Origin: Lentisphaeria bacterium
GTDB lineage: Bacteria > Verrucomicrobiota > Lentisphaeria > Victivallales > Victivallaceae
Reading direction: 5' to 3'
Assembly: GCA_017507125.1 (NCBI GenBank)
Contig: JAFWBQ010000058.1
Location: forward strand, 1 to 64,000
Length of the DNA stretch: 64,000 nucleotides
Below the pieces are notes generated by a model. That model was not told the origin of the DNA and did no database searches. It saw nothing but the letters and a program-made list of their open reading frames with translations. Of the stretch, positions 24,205 through 59,027 are shown in pieces. A program made the position numbers and the translations under genes. Position 1 is the first letter of the stretch, and each line of letters opens with the position of its first letter.

Positions 24205-24249
24205 ATCATGCAGTACGGTTTTAAACATTATTTTTAAAGGATGAGAGAG

Positions 24250-37300: not shown

Positions 37301-37350
37301 GCATCGCCTGGATCGATCAGGTGGAAATAGTCGAGATCCCCAAAAAATAA
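34342..37350 (+). CDS. Secreted DUF4838 protein with CBM9-like domain (paralogue 4)
   Basis: This 1002-residue exported paralogue starts with the signal MLKKSLFLCLLAAGAVTLSAAA. It shows the same blocks: GVYDFLERFAGVRFYFPGE, CHGLAHLALTERFAKTNPDYF, FNVMPND...CQCSKC, a CBM9-like sandwich (KITIDGKDTEKAW onward) and a C-terminal module ending IAWIDQVEIVE. RBS AAAGGAAAAG before ATG. It is the last gene of the plus-strand cluster and ends at a strong terminator. The lack of sulfatases, transporters or a SusC/D pair nearby separates this cluster from classical Bacteroidetes polysaccharide loci. Confidence 0.85.
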   Translation: MLKKSLFLCLLAAGAVTLSAAAPAGRFEPRPQAPRYCKVDKKKSQVLFENGKANFRIVYGKSRWAMLGAVELANTLTRSLGVKVWASAKKKPGVPSIIVGDVEAAKKAGFDPEKMEWGAFRIKSVGNDIIIAGRDDGVYSEGTLYGVYDFLERFAGVRFYFPGEIGTITPKIKKWVVPAIDISDRPDMQTRTMYSVDPFPSNFHGGGPVRWYDTATKKDGVASAHRYYRIQRRSPFQSCHGLAHLALTERFAKTNPDYFAMNQRGTREIGLHPANSGKFGHVCFSSEGLKKELILDAKAIQIGKDGRSRNAFRNGRPAWPNGDQTYGFFNVMPNDSAHYCQCSKCKPAFAELKWNKKNSLAASNLTWKFMTDIANALKKDKVPGYVLTMSYAHYAPVPEVEIPDNMLVMLALTGPWSDLTPHAKKEQMTRLKAWRKKLGARPYVWNYATKFSARIQLVPNCTPRAFGRYYKEVGDDIFGAFLECETDYWIFGFMNYYIFGRMMWDKKADADAILAEHYKLMYGAGAPEMTRFFDLLEDKWMRHIVGKVIETDVGPVSSRPSEFMLWNEIYSPALRKELDGLLKKAAAKCAKDPDSLKRIAFMRREFYDRLQQGAENYRKTTADVEAWKGYMPQLKAGEKITIDGKDTEKAWSAAPAHYLLPNSSVKSEAVEVRTFFKALRDKENFYFYVECEEPETAKMTALKRKFDEFNIWEDNTIEIFLNPSGDRKTGYQMLFNSLNSLSDNRFKLKAMDWKWNSKAEHKVSITPGKKWALEVRIPRNTMEECKKRLIANVMRSRVIAEKRSPFDTWSPKINNSQYVDNYGILEFEPRKEVSVLPGGDFTEAIHSKRFLGFHRPIQWYNMKFLKKDTKIFRTGGVSLRMDKETEGFSFYDLKNILKPDTRYRLTFYIKTQDIVSLFTWGGGVYFILDCGMKPRKTIGFPKNNGKFVGTMPWTRQSFEFTTPKELGRDGRIYLSFSRINRFNDPKGIAWIDQVEIVEIPKK

Positions 37351-39264: not shown

Positions 39265-42200
39265 TTACTGTTGGATCTGTTCAAGGTATCTCCGGGCATG
39301 GTCATGCCCCTTCTGAGCAGCCTTTTTGAGCCAGTAAAAAGCCTTCTTGCTGTTGAAGGGCACTCCCTGTCCCTTCTCATGGCGGATCCCCAGATCATAC
39401 ATGGCCTCGGCAAATTCAAGGTCGGCGGCTTTCTGCAGATATTTCAGGGCGAGAGCATCATCCGCCTTCATCTCTTTGAAGCCGTTTTTGTACAAATTGG
39501 AAATCTTGTAGGCCAGCTCTCCGTTTTCATTTTCGAGCGCCAGCAGATAATATTTCATCATATCAGCGGCACTGCCTTTGTGATCTTCGCGGCGTATGGC
39601 TTCAGCGACCTTGAGGGCAGCGGCAGGGTTCCCCTGTTCGGCGGCTTCCTGATACCACTTGTAAGCGCTGCTGCTGTCAGAGAACCACATACCGATCCCC
39701 TTCCCGTAGATCTCCGCCACCTGAAGTATGGCTTCAGGATGTTTTGCCCGGGCGGCAGGCAGAAGAGTTTCCAGCGCCTTTTTATACTCTTTCTTCCTGA
39801 AAAGCGCCATTCCTTTTTCGTACTGCTGCTGCATGGGATGAACAATACGTTCAAACCGGAAATCGACCTGCTTCAGCTCCCCGGGAACGGAGCTGCGGAT
39901 CTTTCTTTTCAACACCTGTTTGCCGGATCTTGCCTCTGCCAGATATTCCCGGAAAGGCTCAATGGTAATTTTTTCACCCGCTTTGCAGACATTGCCGTCA
40001 AGAGTAAAGAGCGTATTGAACCTGTTGGAACCGAACATCACTGCTGCAGAAAGCGGTTTGACTTCAAGCAGGAAGTCAGCCGTGCGTTCCGGAGTGACAG
40101 TGACCGTCAGACCGCTCTGGGGAACAACGCCCCTGCCGCGGAAGCTGATATTTGTTTCCCCCTCTGCCAGATGCCGGATGAAGGGAAATGTTTTGACAGT
40201 TATCCATTCGTCGCCGCCGATCTTTACTTCAAGGCCGCTCTTCTGGATGAATGTCAGAAACTCCTGAGGCGCAGCGGTGGTAACATAAATATTCAAGGTG
40301 CCCATACGTTTCATGGGAGCTGATACCTGAGAAGCTGATACCGGCGTTTCAGGCTCTCTGGCTTCCACAGCCGCAAGATTGATCTGCAATGAAGTATTCT
40401 CGCGGACCGTCAACTCACGTCTTGCAGCAATATATCCCTTGCGGTTGAAGCTGAAAACATATTTTCCCTGATCCAGATTCTCCACCGTGAAATAGCCTGA
40501 AGCGGGGATCTCGAACTCCCGGATCTTCTTCCAGTTGGCGAAAAGCTCCCCTTTTGTGCCGGTGGCGGCATAAACGGTCACTGAATAACGCTGACGCTGA
40601 AGAGGAATGGTTGCGGAAGCATCCTTTTCAAGATTCAACACAGAGGTGTGGGGCGCGTGATACAAGGCGGTGATCTTCAATTCATAGACCCCTTTTATGA
40701 CCTTCGGGAAGAGGCATTTCCCCTCAACGTCGCTCTTTCCGGAGTATTTGACCTGAGAGTTCTGCAAAAGCTCTACCCGACTTCCGGGCAGAGTCATCAA
40801 TGTGAATTTCTTGAAGATCTTTTCCATTGAAAGCCGGAGCTTCAGATCTCCGTCAAGAGTCAGCTCTTTTTCCACCGGGAAACAGTCGCTGAGTGAAGCC
40901 TTGAGGGAATATCTCCCCTTTTTCAAATCTCTGATCTCCAATTTTCCGGACTCCGGAATGGAAAAGGTCATCTCTCTGCCTTCAGGGGTGTTGAGTGTGA
41001 CGGATGTGCCGGCTTCCCCGGTCAGAGAGATTTTTTTCACATCCTTTTTCAGAAGCAGAGTCAGACTCACATTGTCCTCAATGCTGCACCTCTTTTTGAG
41101 CGTCACATGATCAGGACATGAGATCTCCACTTCATAGGTTCCTTTTTCCACCCCCGGAAGAGTGAATCTGCCGCTGCTGTTGACAGCATAAGTAAAAATC
41201 TGTCCGCCGGCAGAGATAAGGCGGAGCGTCGCTTCAGGAGTGGTCACGATCGTAAGAGAATATCTCTCTTTGTTTTCAGCTGCCGGTGCCACGGGAAGAG
41301 ATTTTCCCGATCCCTCCGTCACCTTCTCCTTCCCGCCGCCGGAACCGGCGGCAAAAATGGCACCCACGCCGATGCACACTGCCAGAAAAACGGCTGCGCC
41401 CCCTGCCGCCAGCAGGATCTTTTTACGCTTTTCCTGTTTCCGCATGTCGTACAATGTGCCGGTCAGCACAGAGTTGCTGCTGACCTGTCCGACACCGGTA
41501 TCGTTCCTGGAAGCGATAATACTGTTCACCACCAGTTTGATGTCCGTATCAGAAAGGGCAGGGATCAACTTGCCCAGGGCGTCAAGGAGCTGCGCCGGGG
41601 TCTGGAAACGTTTTTCCGGCTCCTTGGCAAGCATTTTCATGATGATGGCGGCGATTTCAGCGGGGATTTCCGGATTGATCGACCTGGGATCAGGAACCGG
41701 AGAGGAAAAGATCTTCCGCAGAATGTCGTAAGAGGTCTTGCCGGGATAGGGGATCTGCCCGGTCACCATCTCGTAGAATGTGGCACCCAGACTGTATATG
41801 TCACTGCGGATATCCACCGCTTTGGGATTTTCCACCTGCTCCGGGGAAAGGTAGGCGGGAGTTCCCATCATCACATTGGTCTTGGTGAGATTGTCTTCCT
41901 CATCATCCTTTTTGGCGATACCCAGATCCGCCAGTTTGACGCCGCCCTCTTTGGTGAACATGATATTGTCGGGCTTGATATCCCGGTGGACGATCTTGCG
42001 TTCCGCAGCCATATTCAGCGCGGCAGCCACTGCCTGTATGGTCACGATCGCCTGTTCAAGATTGAGTTTGTACTGCGCCCGGAGCACTTGACGCAAACTT
42101 CCGCCGTCAACATATTCCATAACGATGTACGAAACATTGAGCTGCGGATCGGTTTCAACGTCCATGACTTCGACCACGTTGGGGTGACGGATCTGGGAGG

Positions 42201-42543
42201 CGATCCGCGCCTCCCGGATGAACCTTTCGACAAAGGCGCCCTCCCCGCCTGAATTGTCCCGGGCAAGTACCTTCAGCGCGCGCAAAGTATCGAGCTGCGT
42301 ATGGCGGGCAAGATAAATGACGCCCATGCCCCCTTTGCCGATCTTCCGGAGTATCTCATATTTGCCGATGATCTGTCCTTTGCTCCAGGAAAAACAATCA
42401 TTTATTCCGGCAAAAGCGGATTCCCCCTCCTGAACGACTTTCTGTATTTCGTCGATATTTCCTGATTTCAACAGTTCTCTGATGTTGTCGCCTGCGACAA
42501 CAGTCATGGCTGTTTCCATTTCATTATTCTGATTACTGGTCAT
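39265..42543 (-). CDS. Transmembrane Ser/Thr kinase with PEGA and Sel1 repeats
   Basis: The 1092-residue protein is a Hanks-type kinase (about 55-320): GKGGMGVIYLARH glycine loop, ALKVL lysine, HRDIKPDNIMF catalytic loop, ADLGIAK (DLG for DFG) and GTPAYLSPEQ activation end. After one membrane helix (about 374-398) come several PEGA-type beta domains (about 425-770, for example VEKGTYEVEISCPDH, LKKGRYSLKASLSDC, IKGVYELKITA) and C-terminal Sel1 repeats (about 940-1090). The sensor half is extracytoplasmic and could read the state of the envelope or pilus. All catalytic residues are present. Start at 42543 with GGAGA upstream; 20 bases follow the FHA-kinase gene. Confidence 0.88.
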   Translation of the reverse strand: MTSNQNNEMETAMTVVAGDNIRELLKSGNIDEIQKVVQEGESAFAGINDCFSWSKGQIIGKYEILRKIGKGGMGVIYLARHTQLDTLRALKVLARDNSGGEGAFVERFIREARIASQIRHPNVVEVMDVETDPQLNVSYIVMEYVDGGSLRQVLRAQYKLNLEQAIVTIQAVAAALNMAAERKIVHRDIKPDNIMFTKEGGVKLADLGIAKKDDEEDNLTKTNVMMGTPAYLSPEQVENPKAVDIRSDIYSLGATFYEMVTGQIPYPGKTSYDILRKIFSSPVPDPRSINPEIPAEIAAIIMKMLAKEPEKRFQTPAQLLDALGKLIPALSDTDIKLVVNSIIASRNDTGVGQVSSNSVLTGTLYDMRKQEKRKKILLAAGGAAVFLAVCIGVGAIFAAGSGGGKEKVTEGSGKSLPVAPAAENKERYSLTIVTTPEATLRLISAGGQIFTYAVNSSGRFTLPGVEKGTYEVEISCPDHVTLKKRCSIEDNVSLTLLLKKDVKKISLTGEAGTSVTLNTPEGREMTFSIPESGKLEIRDLKKGRYSLKASLSDCFPVEKELTLDGDLKLRLSMEKIFKKFTLMTLPGSRVELLQNSQVKYSGKSDVEGKCLFPKVIKGVYELKITALYHAPHTSVLNLEKDASATIPLQRQRYSVTVYAATGTKGELFANWKKIREFEIPASGYFTVENLDQGKYVFSFNRKGYIAARRELTVRENTSLQINLAAVEAREPETPVSASQVSAPMKRMGTLNIYVTTAAPQEFLTFIQKSGLEVKIGGDEWITVKTFPFIRHLAEGETNISFRGRGVVPQSGLTVTVTPERTADFLLEVKPLSAAVMFGSNRFNTLFTLDGNVCKAGEKITIEPFREYLAEARSGKQVLKRKIRSSVPGELKQVDFRFERIVHPMQQQYEKGMALFRKKEYKKALETLLPAARAKHPEAILQVAEIYGKGIGMWFSDSSSAYKWYQEAAEQGNPAAALKVAEAIRREDHKGSAADMMKYYLLALENENGELAYKISNLYKNGFKEMKADDALALKYLQKAADLEFAEAMYDLGIRHEKGQGVPFNSKKAFYWLKKAAQKGHDHARRYLEQIQQ

Positions 42544-42563
42544 GATTCTCCATATCACATATT

Positions 42564-44318
42564 TTATGAATCCTTTCCGCGACGGGAACGGATCCGGTAT
42601 TCTCCCGGAACAAGCCCTTTGATGCCGAGTCTGCCTTCTGCGGAAACTTCCGCCTCAATGCTCCTTCCGTTTGAAGAAGTTATTTCCCATGCCGTCCCCG
42701 GAGCCGCCTGGATGGTAAAATCAACAGTGTCTCCGGCAGCAAGAGCGGGATCTATATGAAAAGTAAAATGTTTTTCAGAGATTGCCTTCTTTTTCTTTTC
42801 ACCTTTTTTTCTGCCGGTTTCAAAGGGTGAAAAAAAAGCAGCGACATTCTGCCGGAAATTGAAGAGAGTGAATCCCAAAAGGCTCCCGGCTCCGGATGAA
42901 ACTGTTTTTTTCACGCCGAAAGGCAATTCTGTCCCCAGGACGGCAGACCTGATGATGTTCTGAGCCACCGAAAGGGAATAACGGTTCAGCAGCCGGTCCA
43001 GTGCCGCCAGAAGCGCCTGGGGAGACTGATAACGCTTTGCCGGATTCTTGTGCAGCATCTTCATAACGATCTTCGCTGTCACAGCCGACACCTGAGGGTT
43101 CTTTTTGCGGGGATCGACCACTGCTTCAGAGATCATTTTCTGCAAAATGTCCCAAGTGCTTTTTCCGGCAAAAGGGGTCGTTCCCGTCAGCATCTCATAA
43201 AGAGTGACACCCAGACTGTAAATATCGGATCTTATATCCACATCTTTGGGTTTTTCGATCTGTTCCAGCGAAAGGTAGGCCGGGGTTCCGATCATAATAT
43301 TGTTCCGGGTCAGATTGAGATCTTCTTCCTGATTTTTGGCGATACCCAGATCCGCCAGTTTCACTTCGCCGTAGCGTGTGAACATGATATTATCGGGCTT
43401 GATATCCCGGTGGACGATCTTATGGGCGGCAATGACCTTCAGAGCCTCTGCCACGCTTTTCACGATGAGCAGCGCCTGGATCTCAGGAAGGGTCTTCTGA
43501 TTTTTCAGGATCCGGCGAAGCGATCCGCCGTCTACAAACTCCATAACGATATAAGAGACCTGCTTTTCAAAATCATTTTCCACATCCATAACGCCGACGA
43601 TATTGGGATGGCGGAACTCTGCGGCGATCCGTGCCTCGCGCATGAAACGTTCAAAGAAGTCGTTGTTTTCCTCTTTCACAGAGTGGGGCATTACCTTCAC
43701 GGCGCGGAAGGTATTCATCACCTTATGCTTGGCAAGAAAGACGACGCCCATGCCCCCTTTCCCGATTTTCTTGATGATTTTATAGGTGCCGAGATCCTGC
43801 AGTGTTTCAAGAGAGAGCTCTGACTTCAGAAGAGGCTCTTTCATGATGGGGATTGCTTTTCTGAGCCTTTCAGCCTCTTTTCCGGCAATGGCATCTCTCA
43901 CCTCTTTCGGGGCGATCATGGTCACAGCAGTGGGCACATTTTCTCCGGAGTCATCATCAAGGAGCGGCTTATATTCATCCACGACAAAAAGAGAACTGTC
44001 CTGCCGCCTGGCGGAAATGGTCCAGCTGTCATTATCTTTTTCAAACCGGAAAAGGATCATTCCCAGAAGCACCGTGTCGCCGCCTCGAAGTTCAGCTTTT
44101 TCTGTAAGGAGTTTACGGTTGAGGTATGTGCCGTTCAGACTTTGCATATCTTCCACAAACAGTTTGTTTTCAAAGGCAGAAAGACGCATGTGAAAGGCTG
44201 AAATACCGATCTCGTCAAGCACGATAAGATTTGCCTCATCATATCCGATGGTAACGCCCTGACCGGTGATCTCCAGCTCTGAAAAGCTGTTTTTAAGGTC
44301 GCAATATGTGATCAGCAT
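42564..44318 (-). CDS. FHA-domain Ser/Thr protein kinase, soluble
   Basis: The 584-residue protein joins an N-terminal FHA domain (about 1-95) to a Hanks-type kinase (about 178-450: GKGGMGVVFLAKH, AVKVM, HRDIKPDNIMF, ADLGIAK, GTPAYLSLEQ) and a small C-terminal PEGA-like domain. There is no membrane helix. In the FHA domain the usual Gly-Arg is Gly25-Tyr26, while SAFH and NGTYLN are kept, so phosphothreonine binding may be weakened or altered. The ATG at 44318 is favoured (GGGGGGTG upstream) and overlaps the end of the preceding kinase-like gene by seven bases, implying translational coupling. Confidence 0.88.
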   Translation of the reverse strand: MLITYCDLKNSFSELEITGQGVTIGYDEANLIVLDEIGISAFHMRLSAFENKLFVEDMQSLNGTYLNRKLLTEKAELRGGDTVLLGMILFRFEKDNDSWTISARRQDSSLFVVDEYKPLLDDDSGENVPTAVTMIAPKEVRDAIAGKEAERLRKAIPIMKEPLLKSELSLETLQDLGTYKIIKKIGKGGMGVVFLAKHKVMNTFRAVKVMPHSVKEENNDFFERFMREARIAAEFRHPNIVGVMDVENDFEKQVSYIVMEFVDGGSLRRILKNQKTLPEIQALLIVKSVAEALKVIAAHKIVHRDIKPDNIMFTRYGEVKLADLGIAKNQEEDLNLTRNNIMIGTPAYLSLEQIEKPKDVDIRSDIYSLGVTLYEMLTGTTPFAGKSTWDILQKMISEAVVDPRKKNPQVSAVTAKIVMKMLHKNPAKRYQSPQALLAALDRLLNRYSLSVAQNIIRSAVLGTELPFGVKKTVSSGAGSLLGFTLFNFRQNVAAFFSPFETGRKKGEKKKKAISEKHFTFHIDPALAAGDTVDFTIQAAPGTAWEITSSNGRSIEAEVSAEGRLGIKGLVPGEYRIRSRRGKDS

Positions 44319-45076
44319 GAACACCCCCCGCAATGGACAGTACCTGCACACTCCTTAAAGGCGGGTGACCGCAGAACATTTTTCAACATCTTGATTTCCG
44401 AAATTTTTTCTTCTTCACTGAGGGCGGCGCGGGCATTGCCGAAGTCAAAGATCTTGCTGCGGTTCTGAAGATCCCGTCCCAGGTTTTTCACTCTGATATC
44501 GCCGTGGAGGATCCCTTGGCTGTGACAATGCTCCAGCGCCCGGATATATGAACTTTCATCCCCCGGCTCAGGAGTCAGAAGCTCCATGACCATGGCGGCA
44601 AATCCGTTTCCCGTTATGAAATCAAAACATCTGACGATATTCTCGTGCCGGATCTGTTTCAGGAGCCTGTATTCCCGCTCCAGCTTGTTTTTCCCGGAAT
44701 CCCCTGTGATCTTGAGAGCGAATCCTCCGGCGGTTTTAAATACACAGCCGTCAGATCCGATATCCAGACGCGAAACCAGCACATGTCCCCCCAGAACGCA
44801 AGGGACTTCCGCCTTCTCTGCCAGGGGCGCAAAAAGCCCTGCCAGTTCCTTATGGGGACCGGCAAGTTCAGCAATGAAGAAGTTCTTCAAAAACTGCTTC
44901 CACATCAGAGGAGTCACACTTTTCCGGCAGAGCAGAGCCCGGTCATTCTTCAAAAGAACGGCCATGCCGGGATTGCTTCTGAAAACCTCTTCCGGAGTCT
45001 GCTGTTCCATACAGCGGATCCCGGTTCTGAGTGCCTCTATGGGAAGCTCACGGTTTTTTGAAAAGTTCAGCCGCAC
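44312..45076 (-). CDS. Divergent protein-kinase-like protein (HGD type)
   Basis: The 254-residue product looks like a small kinase of the lipopolysaccharide-kinase/RIO-like side of the superfamily. It has FALKITG (Lys122), EREYRLL, ILHGDIRVKNLG with HGD instead of HRD (Asp193, Asn198), and KIFDFGNA (Asp211). The fold is shortened after the DFG region and ends in a cysteine-rich tail (CAGTVHCGGCSC). The glycine-rich loop is poor. The GTG at 45076 has AGAGGT at good distance and overlaps the phosphatase gene by 29 bases; an ATG at 45010 is the alternative. It may phosphorylate a protein or a small molecule in the same pathway. Confidence 0.7.
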   Translation of the reverse strand: MRLNFSKNRELPIEALRTGIRCMEQQTPEEVFRSNPGMAVLLKNDRALLCRKSVTPLMWKQFLKNFFIAELAGPHKELAGLFAPLAEKAEVPCVLGGHVLVSRLDIGSDGCVFKTAGGFALKITGDSGKNKLEREYRLLKQIRHENIVRCFDFITGNGFAAMVMELLTPEPGDESSYIRALEHCHSQGILHGDIRVKNLGRDLQNRSKIFDFGNARAALSEEEKISEIKMLKNVLRSPAFKECAGTVHCGGCSC

Positions 45077-45917
45077 TTATGACCTCTGTCGGAGGAGTAT
45101 CACTCAGATCCATCAGATTTCTGACCTGAGCTTCTGCTTCAAGTTTTGCTTCTTCATCTGACGGCTGATATTCTCTGCCTGATTTTACTATCTTTGCCAC
45201 GATGACGGAAACATTATCACGGCCCCCGTCAGCCAGTGCCGCATTGATAAGTTCACGGCACACTGTTTCGGCTGATTCGCGGCGCAAAGTGTTGCAGATG
45301 TAAAGAATATTCTGATCAGTAACCATTCGGGACAATCCGTCGGAACAGATGATGTAGGTATCTTCTTCCTGAACATCTACGCTGTTCCTTTCAAGAAAGA
45401 ACTCCGATCCGGTACCGAGAGCATTGGTCAGCACGCCGCGGAACATGGGTGCCAGCTTGTTTTCATCCACCTTTGAGGCGGCGGCGACGGTATGATCTTC
45501 GGTAAGCTGTTCGATTTCCCCCTCCCGGATCCGGTAGACCCGGCTGTCACCGGCGTGAAAAACAGTCGCCATGGAAGGATGCCAGGGATCCATGAGAAGG
45601 CAGACAAATGTTGCCCCCATTGAGGCGTATTCATGATCGTCCGCATAATCCCGGATCAGTTCGTTGACTTTATAGGCGCTTCTTATGACAAGGCCCTCCC
45701 GCTCAGCGGGAATGGCGGAGGAAGCGGCAAAGACATTTTCGATTTCTCTGACCATCATGGCACTGGCGACTTCGCCTGCCTTGCCACCCCCCATGCCGTC
45801 GGAAACGACATAACATTGTGTCCGGGGAAGCAGAAGGAGCGCATCCTCGTTGTTTTTTCTTACTTTGCCCACATCGGTCAGGGCAAAGGCATCAATTTTT
45901 GAAAGACAATCCAGCAT
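45048..45917 (-). CDS. PP2C-family Ser/Thr protein phosphatase
   Basis: The 289-residue protein is a complete PPM/PP2C phosphatase: TDVGKVRKNNEDALL (Glu24, Asp25), VVSDGMGGGKAGE (Asp40), FHAGDSRVYRI, IICSDGLSRMV (Asp193) and GGRDNVSVIV (Asp234). These residues bind the two metal ions. It would reverse threonine phosphorylation by the kinases encoded next to it, as PppA does in type VI secretion clusters. The true start is the ATG at 45917, with GGAGAG upstream; it shares a base with the stop codon of the dual-FHA gene (TAATG). Confidence 0.93.
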   Translation of the reverse strand: MLDCLSKIDAFALTDVGKVRKNNEDALLLLPRTQCYVVSDGMGGGKAGEVASAMMVREIENVFAASSAIPAEREGLVIRSAYKVNELIRDYADDHEYASMGATFVCLLMDPWHPSMATVFHAGDSRVYRIREGEIEQLTEDHTVAAASKVDENKLAPMFRGVLTNALGTGSEFFLERNSVDVQEEDTYIICSDGLSRMVTDQNILYICNTLRRESAETVCRELINAALADGGRDNVSVIVAKIVKSGREYQPSDEEAKLEAEAQVRNLMDLSDTPPTEVISAAELFKKP

Positions 45918-48241
45918 TACAAATCTCTCCAACCGGATGCGGGCCGCTGCTGCCACATCTTTTTAACAATAGAATCACCGGGCAAACCGGTTTTTATGAT
46001 CCGGGCTCTGATTTTCAGAGCCTCCTCAGGCATGGCGATGTTGAACTCCCTGTTCAACTTCAGAATATTTCTTTTGAAAGCGGAGTAAGCAAGCTCCACT
46101 TCGCCTGCCAGTTTTTTCTGCTGTTCCCCGTCGGGCAGCAGAAAGGCGGCTATACCTCTGGAAACGATGAACTCCCTGCTTCCGGCGGCTGCCGGACGAT
46201 TCACCTGCTCTGTCACGATCTTATTCCGCAGAGCGAGGATCTTCCGGCAGTGTTCCATGTATTGAGCGAATTTCCCTCTGTTGAACCACTGGTTTTCATC
46301 CTTGTTGGCAAAACGGAAAAATTTTTCGATCTCAAGAATGACCTCACGCGCTTCATACAACCGGGGCTTGAAGGGCAGTTCGTCCACGTTCACAGTGGTG
46401 AAGTGGGCATGGATATTGCTCACATAGTCATAGAAGAACTCGATCCCCAGCAACTCGTCATACCGTCCTGCGGGCTCCTTCCGGGAGTTTCTGGGCAGAG
46501 GCATATTCAGACAGTCAAAACTGTAAAGGGCTTTCATATTTGCCTCATCCAGAAAGCACTCCAGAACGGGAATGTTTTTCCCGGTGATAACACCCTTTTT
46601 TTCAAGATTTTTGTGGCTGAGGGACAGCTGCAGAGAGGCATCTTTGAACCTTTCCACAGTCTCTATGAGGCTGCGTCTGAGAGAACCGATATTTTTTTCA
46701 GTCGCCCAGTCGATAGCTTCGGGCAGGTCAAGAGTAAAGCTGTTGACTGCCTCGAAATCCATTTCGCTCACCTTGTCCACCATCACCAGCACGCGCCGGG
46801 TCTCCCGGTTCAAAGTCATGATCGCGGGCAGTACCTTGTTCGCCTTTGACTTGACCGGTCCCCGGGAACTCTTGCCGATTCCCTGAAGGCGGCTGATAAT
46901 GGCCTGATAGTCAGGCTGACGGCTGCTCAGCAAACCCAAAGCTGTCTGCAATTCGTTGTCATCGCTCAAGGTCCGTTCCACATTTTTCAAAAGTCCTTCA
47001 GCTTCGCGGACTGAAGACTTGAGAAATGCCATGTCGGGCTGAGAGGCTTCTGAGATGGCACGGTTGAGTCCATCCCTGCACAACTTCACTTCATTGAGGG
47101 TGGCGCTTTCATTTTCCAGAGTTGAAAGGGTGGAAAAGATGGCATCCAGCAGGATCTTGGCTGTATTGGCTCTTTTCTTTGCCAGCACGCCGCCCGGCCA
47201 TGACCAGCCGGTCACATCTCCCAGATCCATGCTGCCGAGTCTCTGAAGCGCTTGGCTGTGTTCTTTTCTTTCGATATCCTTCCGGACTCTTTCCCACATT
47301 ATCATGGTACTTTTCCACAGCTGCATGGTTTTTCTCAGCTGATTACGTATGTGTTCATTTTTTTCCGCGCCCATTGCCGTCTCTGAAGCAACCAGCAGTT
47401 TTTCAGCTTTTACGAGGTCGCCTTTTTTCATCTCGATCCGTGCCAGTTCAATGATCTTCTCTGAGGAGGGGAAGATATGCAGATAAGCGATATATCCCGC
47501 CATGATGATCAGCGCGGTGATTGCCAGAGTTTTGATGGCGGGCCAGAGTTTTGCGTCATGATGTTCCACGGCAGCATCAAGAAAGCGTATTTCAAGGTAG
47601 GCGATGGTAATGACGTCGTTATCCTGAAGCATCCGCTCGCCGTCCATCATAAGTTCCATGCCGTTGACGCTGGTACCGTTCCGGCTGTTGAGATCCCTGA
47701 TCCAGCAGCTGCCGTCGCTCCGCAGCATCAGTTCTGCGTGCCGTGAAGAAATCAGCTGGTTCTGGAAAATAATGTCGCAGTCGGGAGCTGAACCTATGAG
47801 CATCTGCGGTTTGTTGATATCCACAGTTGTCCGGTATCCTTTGGCATCCATATACTCCAAACGGTGAAACTGAGAGGCTTTTTTATTTTTCTCTTCAAAT
47901 TTTTCAACGATAATGGTGCACTCGCCCAGACTGATCCGGTCACCTGCAGCCAGTTTCCGTTCCTTGATCCTTTTGTTCTGGAAAAAGATACCGTTCCGGC
48001 TGCCCAGATCAGTTATGTAGAAATTGTTTTTGCGTTTTGAGATAACAGCATGTCTCGTACTTGCTGAAGAGTCGACGCCATCCAGTGTCCAGGTGCATTC
48101 CATACCGCGGCCGATGATGATTTCGCGGGTGTATTCATTGGTATTCAACTCATACAGAAGTGTACCGGCGTGTTCAAGGAGGATCTTCAACGCGGCGGTC
48201 TGAGAACTTTTTTTATCTTTGTTTTTACCGAAAAGGCCCAT
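45917..48241 (-). CDS. Dual-FHA membrane protein
   Basis: The 774-residue protein has two FHA domains (about 25-115 and 135-220), one membrane helix (about 236-257, LAITALIIMAGYIAYLHIF) and a long, mainly helical extracytoplasmic region (about 260-774) without a domain I know. FHA1 has the full binding set (Gly44-Arg45, Ser61...His64, Asn83-Gly84). FHA2 keeps SSRH and RNGT but reads Gly150-Ser151 in place of Gly-Arg. It could bridge phosphorylated cytosolic partners to envelope components of the pilus. GGGAG seven bases before ATG; four bases after the next FHA gene. Confidence 0.82.
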   Translation of the reverse strand: MGLFGKNKDKKSSQTAALKILLEHAGTLLYELNTNEYTREIIIGRGMECTWTLDGVDSSASTRHAVISKRKNNFYITDLGSRNGIFFQNKRIKERKLAAGDRISLGECTIIVEKFEEKNKKASQFHRLEYMDAKGYRTTVDINKPQMLIGSAPDCDIIFQNQLISSRHAELMLRSDGSCWIRDLNSRNGTSVNGMELMMDGERMLQDNDVITIAYLEIRFLDAAVEHHDAKLWPAIKTLAITALIIMAGYIAYLHIFPSSEKIIELARIEMKKGDLVKAEKLLVASETAMGAEKNEHIRNQLRKTMQLWKSTMIMWERVRKDIERKEHSQALQRLGSMDLGDVTGWSWPGGVLAKKRANTAKILLDAIFSTLSTLENESATLNEVKLCRDGLNRAISEASQPDMAFLKSSVREAEGLLKNVERTLSDDNELQTALGLLSSRQPDYQAIISRLQGIGKSSRGPVKSKANKVLPAIMTLNRETRRVLVMVDKVSEMDFEAVNSFTLDLPEAIDWATEKNIGSLRRSLIETVERFKDASLQLSLSHKNLEKKGVITGKNIPVLECFLDEANMKALYSFDCLNMPLPRNSRKEPAGRYDELLGIEFFYDYVSNIHAHFTTVNVDELPFKPRLYEAREVILEIEKFFRFANKDENQWFNRGKFAQYMEHCRKILALRNKIVTEQVNRPAAAGSREFIVSRGIAAFLLPDGEQQKKLAGEVELAYSAFKRNILKLNREFNIAMPEEALKIRARIIKTGLPGDSIVKKMWQQRPASGWRDL

Positions 48242-48245
48242 TATT

Positions 48246-50210
48246 TTACTCCCATTTATCTCTCAGAATGTCGTAGCGCCGTCTGTCGCCTGAAATAGAA
48301 AAGACAGCTTCGCAGTCGTTTCTGATCTTGCGTTTTTCAAAGGCATTTCCTTCCTTGGCGGCAGAGATCCAGCGGATCTTCTGGCCATTATACCAGTGCT
48401 GCTGCCTTACGCGCAGCAGACGGAGCAGAGACTCCGCCTCTTTATAAACGCTCTGATTCTTCTCATACAGCGCCTGAGCAAGAATGCTCTTGATCGCCCG
48501 CTCCAAGCGGGGGTACTGCATGGGGGAGTTGCGCTGGAGCTCATCTTTGATCCCGACAATGTTCCGGGCAATATCCCCTTTGGTGTATTCATCACTGCCT
48601 TCCCAATGTTTCTGCTGCATGCCATAGCTCATCAAAAAGAAGTCTTCAGTGACAAGAGCGGCCATTGCACGCATTTTTTCTTCAGCCGGCACCTCGGCGC
48701 GGATGATATAATTGGTTCCTTTGTTTCTGAAAAAGCGCAGAATACCGAAATAAGAGTTCCCCTTTTCATTTTCTCTCTGGTATGTCAGTCTGTGGATCAG
48801 CAAACCGTTTTCATTCTGTCCGTCGGGATGGCAGAAATAGGAAGTGGGGGAGCTTTCAAAGTTGAACTGTTCATCCTTTTTTTCTGAAAGCCGTCTCAAA
48901 GCGTTCTGCAGAGCGGTGAGGCGGTTCTCATAGACAAATTCATCCGAGACTTCGCGCTGTATCATAAGGAGCAGCGGCACATCCCGTTTGGCCCCCAGAA
49001 AGGAACGTATCTCAACGGTATCCTTGTTTACCTGAACCATTTCAGCATTGGGCAGATCGGGATAGTATATATTGAATCCGCCCTTCTCCATTCCCTGTCC
49101 GAAGACCGGCTTATTTGCGATCAGCAATCTGTTTTTGTCTGCGGGCCAGGAAAGATTCTTTTCCTGACCGGGGGCTCTCAACATCCAGATCATTCCCAAA
49201 AGGACGACAAAGAGACTGAAGATGAGAAATTTGAGAAAGAGTCTGTTCTGCTGCTGCTTCTTTATCTGATTTTTGATAAAGTTGATCTCATCCATGCTTG
49301 CCATACGGGTCTGAACGACCTGGGTTTCGTTGGCATTGGTTTTCTCTGAGTCATCGAGTTCTTCATCTTCAAAGAACATGCCCTGTTCTTCAAGAGTATC
49401 TTTGCTGATGGAACCGGTGTTGAAAGTGCCTGTTTCCTGAGGAGGAGCACTGAAAAAGGCCTCTTTGCCGTTTTTGAGTTCCGTGGCATTGTCGGGTCTT
49501 GTTTCATCCAGCTGAGTGATGCCGGTAAGGTTCTTCGTTTCAAAAGCGGCAGTTTCGGAAACCTCTGTTCTGTCATTGCCGGCCGAGGTTTTCTCCGCCC
49601 CGGAGGCGCTGCCGGAATCTTTTTCCACAGAAGCATACAATGTATCTGAAAAGCGTGTCACTGAGGTTTCTTCAGAAAGCTCCCTCACTTCCGTCCCGGA
49701 CCCATCGTCATTGAATTTGGTGATGGAGGTGAGTTCGATTTCCCCGGTGATGCTGTTCATATTCTCCTGCGCAGCATCATCGGCAAACCTTGTAGCCTGT
49801 GTCTCTTCAGAAAAGTCCGTTCCGGCTCCGGGGGCAGTGTCCGTAAGATCACCGACATAGCGTGTGGCTTCGGTCAATTCGCCGTCGTTGTTATCGGCTG
49901 TATTCGCGTTTTCCGCTCCGGTGACTTCAAAGAGGAATTTCAGGGTCTTGCCTGCCTCGATGACCTGACCGGAACGCAGTTCCAGACTCTGGTGGACAAG
50001 TATACCGTCCACACGGGTACCGTATCCGCTGATATTCTGCAGCGTGGCGATGCCGTTTTCAACATCTATGGAAAAATGTTTCCCTGACACATCCTCATTG
50101 AAAACACGGACGTCGGAGGATCTGGAACGGCCGATCATATTCTTGCCGTCATGCAGAGTAAATTCATTCCCCGCATCTTTTCCGGCGGTTATTTTAAGAA
50201 GAAAGCTCAT
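48246..50210 (-). CDS. FHA membrane protein with threonine-rich repeat linker
   Basis: The 654-residue protein has an N-terminal FHA domain (about 1-95; Gly-Arg in MIGRSRSSD, SGKH, GYGT). A disordered acidic linker (about 96-320) follows with recurring T-x-x-T-[RK]-[FY] motifs: LTEATRYVGD, ETQATRFADD, LTSITKFNDD, ETSVTRFSDT. Then come one membrane helix (about 324-344) and a 310-residue extracytoplasmic part with no known domain. The linker threonines are plausible kinase targets and FHA ligands, so the protein may assemble phospho-dependent complexes. AGAGG precedes ATG; it is the first FHA gene after tadC (18 bases). Confidence 0.82.
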   Translation of the reverse strand: MSFLLKITAGKDAGNEFTLHDGKNMIGRSRSSDVRVFNEDVSGKHFSIDVENGIATLQNISGYGTRVDGILVHQSLELRSGQVIEAGKTLKFLFEVTGAENANTADNNDGELTEATRYVGDLTDTAPGAGTDFSEETQATRFADDAAQENMNSITGEIELTSITKFNDDGSGTEVRELSEETSVTRFSDTLYASVEKDSGSASGAEKTSAGNDRTEVSETAAFETKNLTGITQLDETRPDNATELKNGKEAFFSAPPQETGTFNTGSISKDTLEEQGMFFEDEELDDSEKTNANETQVVQTRMASMDEINFIKNQIKKQQQNRLFLKFLIFSLFVVLLGMIWMLRAPGQEKNLSWPADKNRLLIANKPVFGQGMEKGGFNIYYPDLPNAEMVQVNKDTVEIRSFLGAKRDVPLLLMIQREVSDEFVYENRLTALQNALRRLSEKKDEQFNFESSPTSYFCHPDGQNENGLLIHRLTYQRENEKGNSYFGILRFFRNKGTNYIIRAEVPAEEKMRAMAALVTEDFFLMSYGMQQKHWEGSDEYTKGDIARNIVGIKDELQRNSPMQYPRLERAIKSILAQALYEKNQSVYKEAESLLRLLRVRQQHWYNGQKIRWISAAKEGNAFEKRKIRNDCEAVFSISGDRRRYDILRDKWE

Positions 50211-52011: not shown

Positions 52012-53733
52012 TTATTTGACTCCTGCGGGGATCCGGTTGTTTTTGGCAAATATGGACAAATCAACGGAAAGGCGTCCCCGTTGTCTGAGAACATCAACAA
52101 AGTGGGGGATATTGCCGGTTGCGACGAAATGTCCGGTGACTCTGCCATCTGAGTCCATACCTTCCTGCTGGAAGACAAAAATATCCTGCATCGTGATCAC
52201 ATTGCCTTGTCTTCCGACGACTTCGGAAACCTGAGTGATCTTTCTTGTACCGTCGATGAGACGGTTCTGCTGGATTATCAGATTGACAGCTGACGAGACC
52301 TGCTCTCTGATGGCACTGACAGGGAGTTCAAAGCCTGCCATCAGCACCATATTTTCAAGGCGGCTGAGAGCATCACGGGGACTGTTGGCGTGCACCGTGG
52401 TCAGAGAGCCGTCATGACCGGTATTCATAGCCTGAAGCATATCCAGAGCTTCGCCGGAACGGCACTCACCGATAATGATCCTGTCGGGACGCATACGCAG
52501 GGAGTTGACCAGCAGATCCCGGATGGCGATCCTGCCCCGGCCCTCGATATTGGCGGGTCTGGATTCCAGGCGCACAAGGTTGCGGTGACTCAGTTTGAGT
52601 TCTGCGGAGTCCTCGATGGTGACCAGGCGCTCCTCCAGAGGGATGAACTGGCTCAGAACATTGAGCAAGGTGGTCTTACCGGAGCCGGTACCGCCGGAAA
52701 TGACGATATTCTGTCTGGCCTTGACAGCTTCAGCCATAAAGTCGGCCATATTCTGCGTCAGGCTGCCGAATCTCACCAGATCCTCAGTGGTCAGTTTTCG
52801 CGAAGCGAATTTCCGGATCGTCATGGATGCCCCATCCAGCGCCAGAGGCGGGATGATGGCATTGACACGGGATCCGTCGGGCAGACGGGCGTCCACCATG
52901 GGACTTGCTTCATCCACGTGCCGTCCCAGAGGCTCCACGATCCTCTGGATGATGGAAATCAGATGGCGCTCATTGAAGAAACGGATCCCTGTTTCATAAA
53001 GTTTGCCCTGTTTTTCAACAAAGATCAGATTGGGACCGTTGACCATGATTTCATCAATATCCGCGGCCCGGAGCAAAGAGGATATGGGGCCGTAGTTGAT
53101 AAGTTCATCGACCAGAGCCTCTTTGAAGATCTCAGCGGGGATGTTCCGCGGAAGTTCGTGCCACAGCTCCCGCAGAACCTTGTTCAATGCGCGATCAAGG
53201 TTTCTGCGGGATTCTGTTTTCTGCATTTCATTGACATTGATCTTCATGTCCACCAGATGCATTTCGGCGAGAACCCGTTCATGGATACGGCGTTTCAGAG
53301 CCATCATCTCATCTGTATAAAGCAGATTGGCGTTTTTGTATTCGTGCAGGAGTTTTCCCGGCATCATGGAAACAGCAGCAGAAGAGGCGTCGATATGAGT
53401 ATAATTGGTCTGTTCACACTCCTCGACGTCTCCGGTCACTTCTTCCCGTGAAAGACAGAGCTCATAGCTCCCGATGCGGATCCGGTGACCGGCGGAAATA
53501 CTTTCCCGGTCATTGATCTGAACGTTACCGATACAAGTGCCCAATGCGCTGCCGCAGTCCTCAATAAAGAACTGATTGTCTTCAAAAATAAGTCTGGCAT
53601 GACGCCTTGATACTTGAGAAGAGCTCAACACGACATCGCATGATGACTCTCTGCCGATAAGCCAGGTATTTTTGCCCGCTTCAAGTTTTACACTTCTGAC
53701 GGGTTCAGTCCGCCCTTTGATAACCAGATACAT
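52012..53733 (-). CDS. tadA: FHA-fused Tad pilus ATPase TadA/CpaF
   Basis: The 573-residue protein joins an FHA domain (about 1-97; LIGRESSCD, SRRH, GTCIGN) to a complete CpaF-type secretion ATPase. The motor has Walker A GGTGSGKTT (about 347-355), the Asp box IEDSAEL, Walker B RPDRIIIGECRSGEA and the His box GHDGSLTTVHANS. TadA powers pilin extrusion from the cytosolic face of TadB/TadC. The FHA domain keeps its Gly-Arg and Ser...His residues, so the motor itself can probably dock on phosphothreonine. AGGAG lies before ATG. No TadZ localisation factor is encoded here. Confidence 0.93.
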   Translation of the reverse strand: MYLVIKGRTEPVRSVKLEAGKNTWLIGRESSCDVVLSSSQVSRRHARLIFEDNQFFIEDCGSALGTCIGNVQINDRESISAGHRIRIGSYELCLSREEVTGDVEECEQTNYTHIDASSAAVSMMPGKLLHEYKNANLLYTDEMMALKRRIHERVLAEMHLVDMKINVNEMQKTESRRNLDRALNKVLRELWHELPRNIPAEIFKEALVDELINYGPISSLLRAADIDEIMVNGPNLIFVEKQGKLYETGIRFFNERHLISIIQRIVEPLGRHVDEASPMVDARLPDGSRVNAIIPPLALDGASMTIRKFASRKLTTEDLVRFGSLTQNMADFMAEAVKARQNIVISGGTGSGKTTLLNVLSQFIPLEERLVTIEDSAELKLSHRNLVRLESRPANIEGRGRIAIRDLLVNSLRMRPDRIIIGECRSGEALDMLQAMNTGHDGSLTTVHANSPRDALSRLENMVLMAGFELPVSAIREQVSSAVNLIIQQNRLIDGTRKITQVSEVVGRQGNVITMQDIFVFQQEGMDSDGRVTGHFVATGNIPHFVDVLRQRGRLSVDLSIFAKNNRIPAGVK

Positions 53734-53768: not shown

Positions 53769-55340
53769 TCACCATCTCCAGAACTCGTACCACTTGCCGT
53801 CGTTCTTATGCTCTTTTTCAGTGATTTCTTTGAGCTCTCTGTCTTCTCTGGCCTTCATTTTAGCAAGTTCAGCTGCGACGGAGTCGAATTCGCCGGCTTT
53901 CGCCATCTTGCGGACGCAGACGATGGTCAGGATCTCTTCTTCGTTGAAGGTGTCAGATTCACTGGCAATGAGCCACTTCAGAACGGGCACGTTGCGGAGA
54001 TAGGGGATGGAGTCAGAAGCAGTATTCACCCGGGTCCACTCTTTCAGACCGCCCAGAGCGATGGGTTCGCCCAGCTTGGCGACGAAAGAGGAAGTGGTTT
54101 TGAATTTCTTCAGGTCAAGTTTGGCATCGCGGACATTGGAGCTGATGGGACCGGGATAGCTGAGTTCCTGATTGATCTCGATGGAAACTTTGTCGGCACC
54201 GGTAAGACCGCCCTTGACTTCAAGGATCAGACCGTACTCAACATCTTTGAGCTGAGAGGTGGAACCGGCAACAGCGTCGGAAGAGATGTAAAGAGTACCG
54301 CCGTTGTGCAGTCTGCGGAACTGGGGAGTGTCATTGCTCTTGAAAGTGAGGAATCCGGCACGTCTGGCTCTGGTGATGCCGTTGTTGCCGCAAAAAGCAA
54401 GCAGTGCAGTGAGGGGGCCCATAGTGCCGGCACCGAAGGCAGCCTGAGCGCTGCGGTCAGTGGACTGACCCATGATCTTGTTGACGGACCACATCAGATT
54501 GGATCCCAGTCCGATACCGCCGTTGACAAAGGCGCTCCAGTCAATACCCACTTTTTTGGCCTGGGTCTTGTTGACGGCCAGGTGGATGACGTCGATCTGA
54601 AGCATGACGGGCAGCACCTGAATATTGACATAAGCCTGAACTTTGCCTTCGGATTTGACGGCGTTGTTGGCGTTGATGGTGAGCCAGGGCTGTGCAGAAA
54701 GGATACTGTTGATCTTTTTCAGATCTTCGGGACCGTAAACGGAACCGGTGATGGTAAGCATTTCGCCCACCTGGGTGATGGAAATTTCACCGGGTTTGTT
54801 CTCCTTGCCGGTACGGACAACCTTGAATCCGGCTTTTTCAAAGTTCTTGTGCAGACCGACCATCACTTCAGGAGCGGGACGGAAGGTGGTCAAATCGAGA
54901 ATGACACTTCCGTAGGCCTTGACGACCTTGTTCTTCAGTTCCCAGTTGGCGATGTTTGAAAGTTCGCCCTTGAGAACCAGTCGGCTGTTGTTCATGGTGA
55001 TGGAAATTTCAGGCACCGCATCAAGGTCGCGTTTGAGAGAGACCAGAAGGGGAGCCAGGTTGTCGAAAACGTCGACTTTGAAGACCTGGGACATACCGCC
55101 GCCGAGGATCTGAACGTCAGTCATACCCACTTTCAGTCCGCTGATACGAACCATGCGGCCATTTTCAGAGATGACTTCGACTTTGACCACATCCGGACTG
55201 CTGACGCTGATGCTGCCGATCTTGAAAGCGACCTCTTCCAGGATCATAGCGTCTTTGGCAACGCGCAGGGCTTTAGCTTCTGCGCCCGCCAGGCTGAACA
55301 TCATTCCGATGACAGCAAGGAACAAAACCATTTTCTTCAT
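53769..55340 (-). CDS. cpaC: Tad secretin (RcpA/CpaC family)
   Basis: The 523-residue protein has a signal peptide (MKKMVLFLAVIGMMFSLAGAEA). The N-terminal pilus-assembly domain follows (about 23-105, SVSSPDVVKVEVISE, VGMTDVQILGG), then a BON-like middle (ELSNIANWELKNKVVKAYG) and a secretin channel domain (about 225-470, VNIQVLPVMLQIDVIHL, LNKGTLYI-type GGTLYISSDAV, VPVLKWLIASES). It forms the outer-membrane pore for the pilus. The C-terminus has a charged, coiled 45-residue extension ending WYEFWRW. AAAGGAAAAG before ATG; 35 bases separate it from tadA and 19 from cpaB. Confidence 0.92.
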   Translation of the reverse strand: MKKMVLFLAVIGMMFSLAGAEAKALRVAKDAMILEEVAFKIGSISVSSPDVVKVEVISENGRMVRISGLKVGMTDVQILGGGMSQVFKVDVFDNLAPLLVSLKRDLDAVPEISITMNNSRLVLKGELSNIANWELKNKVVKAYGSVILDLTTFRPAPEVMVGLHKNFEKAGFKVVRTGKENKPGEISITQVGEMLTITGSVYGPEDLKKINSILSAQPWLTINANNAVKSEGKVQAYVNIQVLPVMLQIDVIHLAVNKTQAKKVGIDWSAFVNGGIGLGSNLMWSVNKIMGQSTDRSAQAAFGAGTMGPLTALLAFCGNNGITRARRAGFLTFKSNDTPQFRRLHNGGTLYISSDAVAGSTSQLKDVEYGLILEVKGGLTGADKVSIEINQELSYPGPISSNVRDAKLDLKKFKTTSSFVAKLGEPIALGGLKEWTRVNTASDSIPYLRNVPVLKWLIASESDTFNEEEILTIVCVRKMAKAGEFDSVAAELAKMKAREDRELKEITEKEHKNDGKWYEFWRW

Positions 55341-55358
55341 TTTTGCTTTTCCTTTTTG

Positions 55359-56138
55359 TTATTTTTTTGTGGGAACTGCCGGGATGTTGGTTCTTTCCAC
55401 CCCGTTGGCTAAATCATAAAACGTTTTCATATCAACCAGACCTGTGGTGGTACGGTTGAGATTGCCTTCATCATTGGGCCGGCGCAGTGCCGGTGCAAGT
55501 TCGATCCCCTGAGCCTGAGCTGCCAGGAGCATCTGAGCCTGCTGAGGAGGCAGAGAGAGAACGAATTCATCTCCTCCCTGCTGTTTACCGCCGTCAAGGG
55601 CAATGATCCTCACCTGAGGCAGGATCACAGTGGTGATCCTGCGGCTGGACTCCTTGCCGTCCTGACCGAGAACAGCGGATTTTTTCTCTTCTTTAAGGGT
55701 GAAGGTGCCGATGATGGCGATTTCATCGCCGGGACGGAGCCGATTGGTGATCGCTCCGCCGTTGAGGCTGATGGAAACAGCCCATTCACCGTCGCCCACC
55801 ATATCGCTGAGGCCGCGGCCAACGCCGATGTCATCAAGAACGATGTAATCCCCCTGTGAAACGGGTACTTTCATCTTCTGATTCATGATCATATCCACCT
55901 GGCTCCAGCTGATGGCTTTCATAGGAGCCGCTGATTTGGGGATCCGTTTGCGGGTCACTGCGCCGTCCAGGATCATTTCACCGGCAGTAAGGGAGCGGGT
56001 CGCCACAACGACGTCGATCATTTCCTCGCCTGCCATGAAACTTCTCTGACTGATCAGGCGGTTGACTGCAAAAACTGCAGCCAGGGCCAGGATCACTGCC
56101 AGAACCAAAGGTATCATGTTATTTTTGCTGCCTGCCAT
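55359..56138 (-). CDS. cpaB: Flp pilus assembly protein CpaB/RcpC
   Basis: The 259-residue protein has an N-terminal membrane helix (MIPLVLAVILALAAVFAVNRL), an SAF/RcpC domain (VVVATRSLTAGEMILDGAVTRKRIPKSA spans its start; SQGDYIVLDDI) and the conserved RPGDEIAIIGTF block. CpaB-type proteins sit in the periplasm and contact the secretin. The ATG at 56138, with AAGGAAAAAAG upstream, is preferred over an in-frame start 21 bases earlier. The 140-base gap before it, after the kinase gene, holds nothing that I can name. Confidence 0.9.
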   Translation of the reverse strand: MAGSKNNMIPLVLAVILALAAVFAVNRLISQRSFMAGEEMIDVVVATRSLTAGEMILDGAVTRKRIPKSAAPMKAISWSQVDMIMNQKMKVPVSQGDYIVLDDIGVGRGLSDMVGDGEWAVSISLNGGAITNRLRPGDEIAIIGTFTLKEEKKSAVLGQDGKESSRRITTVILPQVRIIALDGGKQQGGDEFVLSLPPQQAQMLLAAQAQGIELAPALRRPNDEGNLNRTTTGLVDMKTFYDLANGVERTNIPAVPTKK

Positions 56139-56278
56139 TCTTTTTTCCTTATTTTTCAAATTTTAATGGGGCACGTCAATACTGCTTCCATCCCGCCTGG
56201 GATGCCGTCATTTTCGTTTCCGGTACAGGGTATTCATGACTTCTCCCGAACCCCTGACACATCACTGTTTTCTCCTGT

Positions 56279-58708: not shown

Positions 58709-59027
58709 TGTTCTGTTTATTCTTTCTGCCGTCGGTGATCTCACCTTTGGCGAAGCCGGTCCTTCCGGAGTCGATCCGCCAGATCATCAGCTGCATTTTT
58801 CTGCTGCCTTTGTGCCAGACGCTGTGTTCCTGTTCTCTTTTAACACCGGCGGTGAAGCCGTTTTTACAGATCCAACCCTCCTTACGCATCTGATATCCGA
58901 TATAGTTCCGGGCGTAGGCGTAGCTGTAAGGGAGCACAACGGCAGAGTTCCATCTGCCGGGAACTTTTTCCGCTGCTCCGCAGAGGAAGGTAAAAGAAAG
59001 TAAAAGTATATAAAGAGCTCTTTTCAT
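58698..59027 (-). CDS. Small secreted protein of unknown function
   Basis: The 109-residue product starts with a clear signal peptide (MKRALYILLLSFTFLCGAAE). The mature part of about 90 residues is basic and aromatic (YSYAYARNYIGYQMRKEGWICKNG), with one cysteine left, and I recognise no family. It lies between a TadE-like gene (one base away) and the kinase gene (11-base overlap), so it is clearly part of the operon. It could be an accessory secreted factor of the pilus. Confidence 0.65.
   Translation of the reverse strand: MKRALYILLLSFTFLCGAAEKVPGRWNSAVVLPYSYAYARNYIGYQMRKEGWICKNGFTAGVKREQEHSVWHKGSRKMQLMIWRIDSGRTGFAKGEITDGRKNKQNNDF

Follow-up and report, generated by a model that had tools for sequence, protein, structure and literature searches.

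Among the closest described systems is Rv1747 of Mycobacterium tuberculosis, whose FHA/disordered-linker region condenses on phosphorylation by PknF, a change that PstP reverses (PMC9312465). GarA carries an ETTS motif beside its FHA domain (PMC5448819), and in the Bdellovibrio protein DgcB the FHA domain is bound by the protein's own pT14 tail (PMC6733907). In the PpkA-Fha-PppA pathway of the T6SS, Fha binds pThr14 of TssL (PMC3953482). Two further reports concern Tad machines: Myxococcus Kil is an FHA-rich, Tad-like killing apparatus (PMC8460266) and class III CpaF carries an FHA (PMC12019362). Tad motors and Tad-like killing machines are thus already known to carry FHA domains; the signal that these read is not identified in the literature covered.

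The operon described here lies on the minus strand of the window, a stretch of 64,000 nucleotides from a Lentisphaeria genome. It encodes FHA-TadA, TadB, TadC, CpaB, a secretin, three Hanks-type kinases, one of them fused to an FHA, as well as a kinase-like protein and a PP2C phosphatase. Its main features are as follows:

39265-42558, minus strand: Ser/Thr kinase with the N-terminal motif ETAMTVVAGD (42490-42513)
42564-44351, minus strand: FHA-kinase fusion (FHA-STPK), with the linker motif PTAVTMIAPKEV at 43899-43931
45048-45956, minus strand: PP2C phosphatase with the conserved C-terminal Thr motif TPPTEVISA (45072-45098)
45917-48241, minus strand: 2xFHA-TM protein, its first FHA with Arg, Ser, and Asn, its second without the Arg
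48246-50210, minus strand: 654-aa protein with an FHA domain, a disordered Thr-motif linker, a TM helix, a PsbP-like extracytoplasmic domain, and C-terminal helices
50228-52178, minus strand: TadC and TadB inner-membrane platform proteins
52012-53733, minus strand: FHA-TadA (CpaF) motor ATPase, its FHA keeping Arg and Ser
53769-56159, minus strand: CpaC secretin and CpaB/RcpC
56279-58744, minus strand: the operon's third Ser/Thr kinase, encoded upstream of CpaB

The presence of CpaB, a secretin, FHA-CpaF/TadA, TadB, TadC, and a TadE/G-like protein identifies a Tad/T4cP locus, which with its FHA-TadA belongs to a known family, that of class III CpaF (PMC12019362). The gene for the 654-aa protein sits between tadC and the gene for the 2xFHA membrane protein, and the order kinase-CpaB-CpaC-FHA.TadA-TadB-TadC-654-aa protein-2xFHA-PP2C is kept across two families of the order. 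Homologues of the 654-aa protein are spread through the order and occupy the same slot in this conserved gene order. Like the T6SS pathway, the operon encodes a kinase, a PP2C phosphatase, and an FHA protein together with an envelope machine, but it neighbours Tad genes, includes several kinases and FHA proteins, and carries motif arrays. With Kil and class III CpaF it shares, by description, a Tad-like machine, an N-terminal FHA on the motor ATPase, many FHA proteins, and a suggested signalling role; a Thr-motif array is not described in the passages covered (PMC8460266, PMC12019362).

Two observations concern other genes of the window. The kinase-like protein (254 aa, 44312-45076, minus strand) contains HGDIRxxNLG and a poor glycine loop, is found in the same place in several loci, and is possibly a pseudokinase. 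Four proteins of ~1000 aa contain DUF4838 (3215-6217, 24241-27168, 27170-30094, and 34342-37350), three of them with carbohydrate-binding modules.

The 654-aa protein divides into the following segments:

49920-50207, minus strand: FHA domain, residues ~2-97 (PF00498, alignment, and Foldseek matches to GarA, FhaA, and OdhI)
49308-49913, minus strand: disordered acidic linker, residues 100-301 (pLDDT <50)
49272-49346, minus strand: juxtamembrane island EKTNANETQVVQT(301)RMASMDEINFIK, T-R-x-A-[ST]-x-x-E-[ILM], running into the TM-forming helix
49179-49241, minus strand: transmembrane helix, residues ~324-344 (predicted helix 306-345, hydrophobic sequence)
48606-49127, minus strand: extracytoplasmic PsbP-like domain, residues ~362-535 (fold search)

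The N-terminal domain is a member of the known FHA family. It scores 37.5 bits against PF00498 (cut-off 20.7), and a Foldseek search with its model returned GarA, FhaA, and OdhI with TM-scores of 0.8-0.9 on the target, consistent with an FHA beta-sandwich. The phosphate-binding Arg28 and Ser42 are kept and are invariant across proteins of its type, while the usual Asn of N-G-T, in the loop that binds the peptide, is a Tyr (SGYGT) that becomes His or Phe in relatives, a departure that speaks against peptide reading by this domain. Three FHA domains of the operon keep the phosphate-binding Arg and Ser: that of the 654-aa protein, the first of the 2xFHA protein, and that of FHA-TadA. Matches of the domain to ubiquitin in a PDB search were rejected as chance, being weak repeats summed.

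The domain scores higher still against PF16697 (Yop-YscD_cpl; 41.9 bits, cut-off 33.2), and Foldseek also matches it to YscD and PscD. Together with the same order of cytosolic FHA-like domain, TM helix, and extracytoplasmic domain, this could mark the protein as a YscD/PrgH-like component of the Tad basal body whose FHA-like domain is purely structural. We consider this highly improbable, given the retained Arg28 and Ser42 and an extracytoplasmic part that by fold search resembles PsbP (closest solved fold, 2xb3, Foldseek E 6e-6, 12% identity) and not ring-building modules. Moreover, PF16697 does not discriminate here because the plainly FHA-type domains of TadA and the 2xFHA protein match it too.

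The linker is of low complexity: T, E, A, and D are abundant, with 29 T, 28 E, and 18 D among its 203 residues. Both pLDDT and PF00498 bear out a preliminary description of this DNA, which had placed four repeated Thr motifs in a low-complexity cytosolic linker that joins an FHA domain to a membrane helix and had put kinases in the same operon; Ser/Thr kinases, the PP2C phosphatase, and FHA-TadA are all found alongside. The four copies are real, span 49644-49874 on the minus strand, and are joined by a looser fifth copy that the description had missed:

49848-49874, minus strand: copy 1, TEATRYVGD, residues 113-121
49779-49802, minus strand: copy 2, TQATRFAD, residues 137-144
49707-49730, minus strand: copy 3, TSITKFND, residues 161-168
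49644-49667, minus strand: copy 4, TSVTRFSD, residues 182-189
49503-49526, minus strand: looser copy 5, TGITQLDE, residues 229-236

When the linker composition was shuffled 200,000 times, four occurrences of T[RK][FY] were never reached (0/200,000; mean 0.12), nor were four of T-x-x-T-[RK]-[FY] (0/200,000; mean 0.017). The loose pattern T-x-[VAILM]-T-x-[FYIVLM] occurs five times in the 654-aa protein compared with 40 matches in 177,395 aa of this genome's other proteins (Poisson P = 5e-7, a value that, like the shuffling results, is flattered by patterns written after the motifs had been seen), and none of the 466 genes in the background set, a ~560-kb sample of the genome, contains it three or more times. 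Because the patterns were defined post hoc, independent support is needed, and this is supplied by the orthologues and the kinases discussed below. The copies in this genome (G000) differ in codons and have spacers that cannot be aligned, so they do not stem from recent tandem duplication. The form T-x-x-T-[RK]-[FY] given in the preliminary description is present, but its second Thr does not hold as the anchor, since the common core is T-x-x-T followed by any residue and a hydrophobic one (TxxTxΦ). The [RK]-[FY] part is specific to this protein type, and T-x-x-T-x-hydrophobic is what other proteins have in common with it.

GarA and OdhI have the closest FHA folds to the model, and in them, as here, a Thr-pair motif occurs in a disordered segment beside the FHA. 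However, they are small soluble metabolic regulators with one motif N-terminal to the FHA, whereas the 654-aa membrane protein has several C-terminal to it. The stretch ETSVTRFSD around copy 4 presumably resembles the GarA/OdhI ETTS plus its following residues. As in DgcB, a candidate self-ligand lies beside the FHA in one chain; DgcB has a single site and a diguanylate cyclase output. Docking in cis was not seen in the AlphaFold model of the 654-aa protein, which is blind to phosphate. On balance, we think it probable that the linker is a multi-site phosphothreonine docking platform of a kinase/PP2C-controlled system that gates or clusters the Tad machine.

The element that is kept throughout lies outside the stretch marked in the preliminary description. 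T-R-x-[AT]-[ST]-x-x-E-[ILM], here QTRMASMDEI around Thr301 (ETQVVQTRMASMDE), is kept in all but one of the ~50 homologues that cover the region. It is the most conserved part of the linker, an island within an otherwise unalignable sequence, at the boundary between disorder and the predicted helix that begins at residue 306. In one clade (support 100) the FHA Ser is gone, the linkers measure 29-53 residues, and the array is absent; the clade nonetheless keeps the juxtamembrane motif, and its FHA-TadA keeps Arg and Ser (GRSDGAG...VSRRH). If the Thr301-type motif is a pThr site, its reader in this clade must therefore be another protein, for which FHA-TadA is the best candidate. Thr301 resembles pThr14 of TssL, a cytosolic pThr of an inner-membrane protein that recruits Fha. 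Separately, a second Tad locus of G013 (L030, contig C69) encodes an intact-FHA homologue that has neither the array nor the juxtamembrane TRxAS.

Binding could also proceed without phosphorylation, T-R-x-A-S-x-x-E starting the juxtamembrane helix as an S-x-x-E capping box or docking on TadC/TadB, and the repeats serving as unmodified docking peptides, e.g., for kinase or secretion partners. The predicted helix does begin right after T-R-M-A-S, the motif persists in the clade whose own FHA is degenerate, and the gene always adjoins that for TadC. A helix cap would account for S-x-x-E but not for the near-invariant T-R that precedes it, and the operon is full of kinases, FHA domains, and a phosphatase. 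As the Thr pair is, in addition, the most constant part of the arrays in two different proteins, we judge phosphorylation-free binding improbable.

Relatives are Lentisphaeria MAGs, mostly from the ruminant gut. By alignment and tree, the closest type comprises seven genomes, with five copies of the motif in G000, two in G027, three in G093, five to six in G013, ~8-9 in each of G126 and G112, and ten in G072; short-read MAGs may misrepresent such numbers through misassembly of the repeats, and the G112 gene is split over two contigs inside the array. The expectation that orthologues would keep the motif while its number varied thus holds for G093, G013, G126/G112, and G072 but fails in G027, the nearest homologue (51-54% identity), which has just two degenerate copies, TQVTEL and TAVTSF. 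The motif is carried by an in-frame DNA tandem repeat in G072 (45 nt x 8.6) and is spread in in-frame 72-nt tandem units in G126 and G013. In G093, as in G000, the copies are dispersed, with different codons and unlike spacers, and TxxT[RK][FY] is kept.

Nor is the array general among homologues. Other intact-FHA homologues have shorter linkers, most with different Thr repeats, [KR]TVIP, DPDKTxIP, DPEMTIIG, or GETRTDP. Unrelated in-frame Thr repeats were noted in three of the homologues (L004, 2638-2822, GETRTDPGEMKTCP; L026, 1189-1393, GKTVIPDG; and L112, 1-294, DPEMTIIGAPAPEVKPA). An association of intact FHA domains with arrays was discarded as repeated evidence because the tree shows one change, so it counts only once. 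No viral occurrence was found.

This variation bears on the alternative that only Thr301 matters and that the repeats are near-neutral, fast-evolving, low-complexity spacer spread by in-frame tandem duplication. The juxtamembrane motif is near-invariant, whereas the arrays may be present or absent and differ in copy number and type; in-frame DNA tandem repeats are frequent here, and the nearest homologue is almost array-free. The linker has also been homogenised recently between G112 and G126, and there no stronger constraint on the motif core than on the spacers could be measured: nonsynonymous changes fall at 0/78 sites of the core and 13/805 of the spacers, with ~1.3 expected in the core, an underpowered comparison that we dropped as a test of selection. 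On the other side stand the dispersed copies of G000 and G093, in which codons and spacers differ and the motif is retained, and the occurrence of the core beyond this protein, described next. Two homologues from different genera (L108 and L114) have a pS of 0.010 in the linker and 0.283 in the C-terminal domain, a difference pointing to a repeat region that was recently homogenised or exchanged.

The motif also occurs outside the FHA-protein linker: operon kinases carry the same core and are therefore themselves candidate docking partners. The linker between FHA and kinase in FHA-STPK contains TxxTxΦ in 7/7 orthologues (PTAVTMIAPKEV, DPTAVTVIAPRE, STAVTVIASPEI, STAITIIPA, or STAMTVMADAGV) within a variable flanking linker, and full-length FHA-STPK orthologues occur in 7/7 genomes with this type of linker in the 654-aa protein versus 0/16 others. 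The core is also present at kinase N-termini in 3/3 TRF-type loci examined, the first kinase reading ETAMTVVAGD, DTAMTVVADE, or DTAITVFADD. Loci with the other linker type have no fusion, and there an operon kinase bears an N-terminal array of its own: kinases of G057, G045, G052, and G077 have three to four TEVTMVDAP-type copies (YPTEVTMVDAP, IETELTMVDAP, HQTDVTML, and similar; shuffling P <= 5e-5), in part as tandem DNA repeats. Since it was the FHA-protein linker that served to define the core, these arrays are an out-of-sample recurrence. Other operon kinases have single copies, each of them weak by itself (P 0.01-0.1), and those in this genome's kinases taken alone are not significant for the loose pattern (P = 0.15). 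Maintenance of the core outside repeats in all seven FHA-STPK linkers and its independent expansion in the kinase N-termini of another lineage leave the possibility that Thr301 alone matters doubtful.

Several related matches have a different standing. In FHA-STPK and its orthologues L130-L135 the FHA lacks the phosphate-binding Arg in 7/7 (GY, GC, GH, or GS). The PP2C tail TPPTE is a related but different Thr pair from the TxxTxΦ core; (D)TPPTE is found in the PP2C tails of L034, L035, L037, L038, L045, L046, L123, and L125 and at the very C-terminus of PP2C in KTVIP-type loci. The juxtamembrane-like motif of the third kinase (DTQITSIEELDEL) was rejected as chance, being absent from the orthologues examined and matching a loose pattern that is common. 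The idea of a genome-wide FHA/kinase signature was likewise set aside, as the other FHA proteins and off-operon kinases examined here have isolated single matches at most.

If the linker is a docking platform, the 654-aa protein would be an accessory component in the inner membrane that bears an FHA domain and serves a Tad machine under kinase control. The Hanks-type kinases of the operon would phosphorylate a common motif, T-x-[VAIM]-T-x-hydrophobic, which mostly has acidic neighbours. It occurs in their own tails and linker, in the FHA-protein array, and, as a variant, at juxtamembrane Thr301. Once phosphorylated, these sites could be bound by the FHA of the 654-aa protein itself, either in cis or across copies, by that of the TadA motor, and by the first of the two FHA domains in the 2xFHA protein. 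Thr301 would act as the core switch linking the membrane complex to a reader in trans, for which FHA-TadA is the leading candidate. The array would raise valency and thereby gather the complex and the kinases around the motor, until PP2C reverses the phosphorylation. We infer the phosphorylation of these threonines, the identity of the kinases, the pairing of FHA domains with sites, and the effect on the pilus; the pattern suggests phosphorylation-dependent 'Velcro' clustering or switching of the machine. TxxTx-hydrophobic does not plainly fit the textbook FHA rule pTxx[ILV/DE] (quoted in PMC8786283), since counting from the second Thr puts the hydrophobic residue at +2, and the +3 position of the first is itself Thr. 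Acidic residues do precede the Thr, which is reminiscent of the mycobacterial kinase motif cited in PMC6888350.

Rv1747 offers the nearest parallel to such clustering. It too is a membrane protein with a cytosolic FHA, a disordered linker with candidate pThr sites, and a kinase gene in its operon, and in both cases reversible phosphorylation is the proposed input to multivalent clustering. Rv1747 has two FHA domains and an ABC exporter, whereas the 654-aa protein combines a single FHA with a PsbP-like domain and belongs to a Tad operon, and here, unlike in Rv1747, the motif is repeated, expanded by lineage, and also present in kinases. By analogy, clustering would work as in Rv1747, although the 654-aa protein is not a member of its family. 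More tentatively, the motif may be a module-wide phosphothreonine code in which TxxTx-hydrophobic is written by the operon kinases and read by the FHAs, valency having evolved by tandem expansion in a scaffold partner, either kinase tail or FHA-protein linker, with phosphorylation clustering the Tad machine.

A Thr motif that kinases have in common with an FHA protein and that has been expanded in one or the other depending on the lineage appears to be new; our literature search, mainly of papers open without subscription, found no description of one. Comparative sequence gives exact candidate sites, namely the near-invariant juxtamembrane Thr and the motif of the kinases and FHA protein, so that short phosphopeptides would allow a direct test of what is read by an FHA-TadA. 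If repeat number does tune valency, these linkers, with 0 to 10 copies, would form a natural series for bacterial multivalent phospho-clustering.
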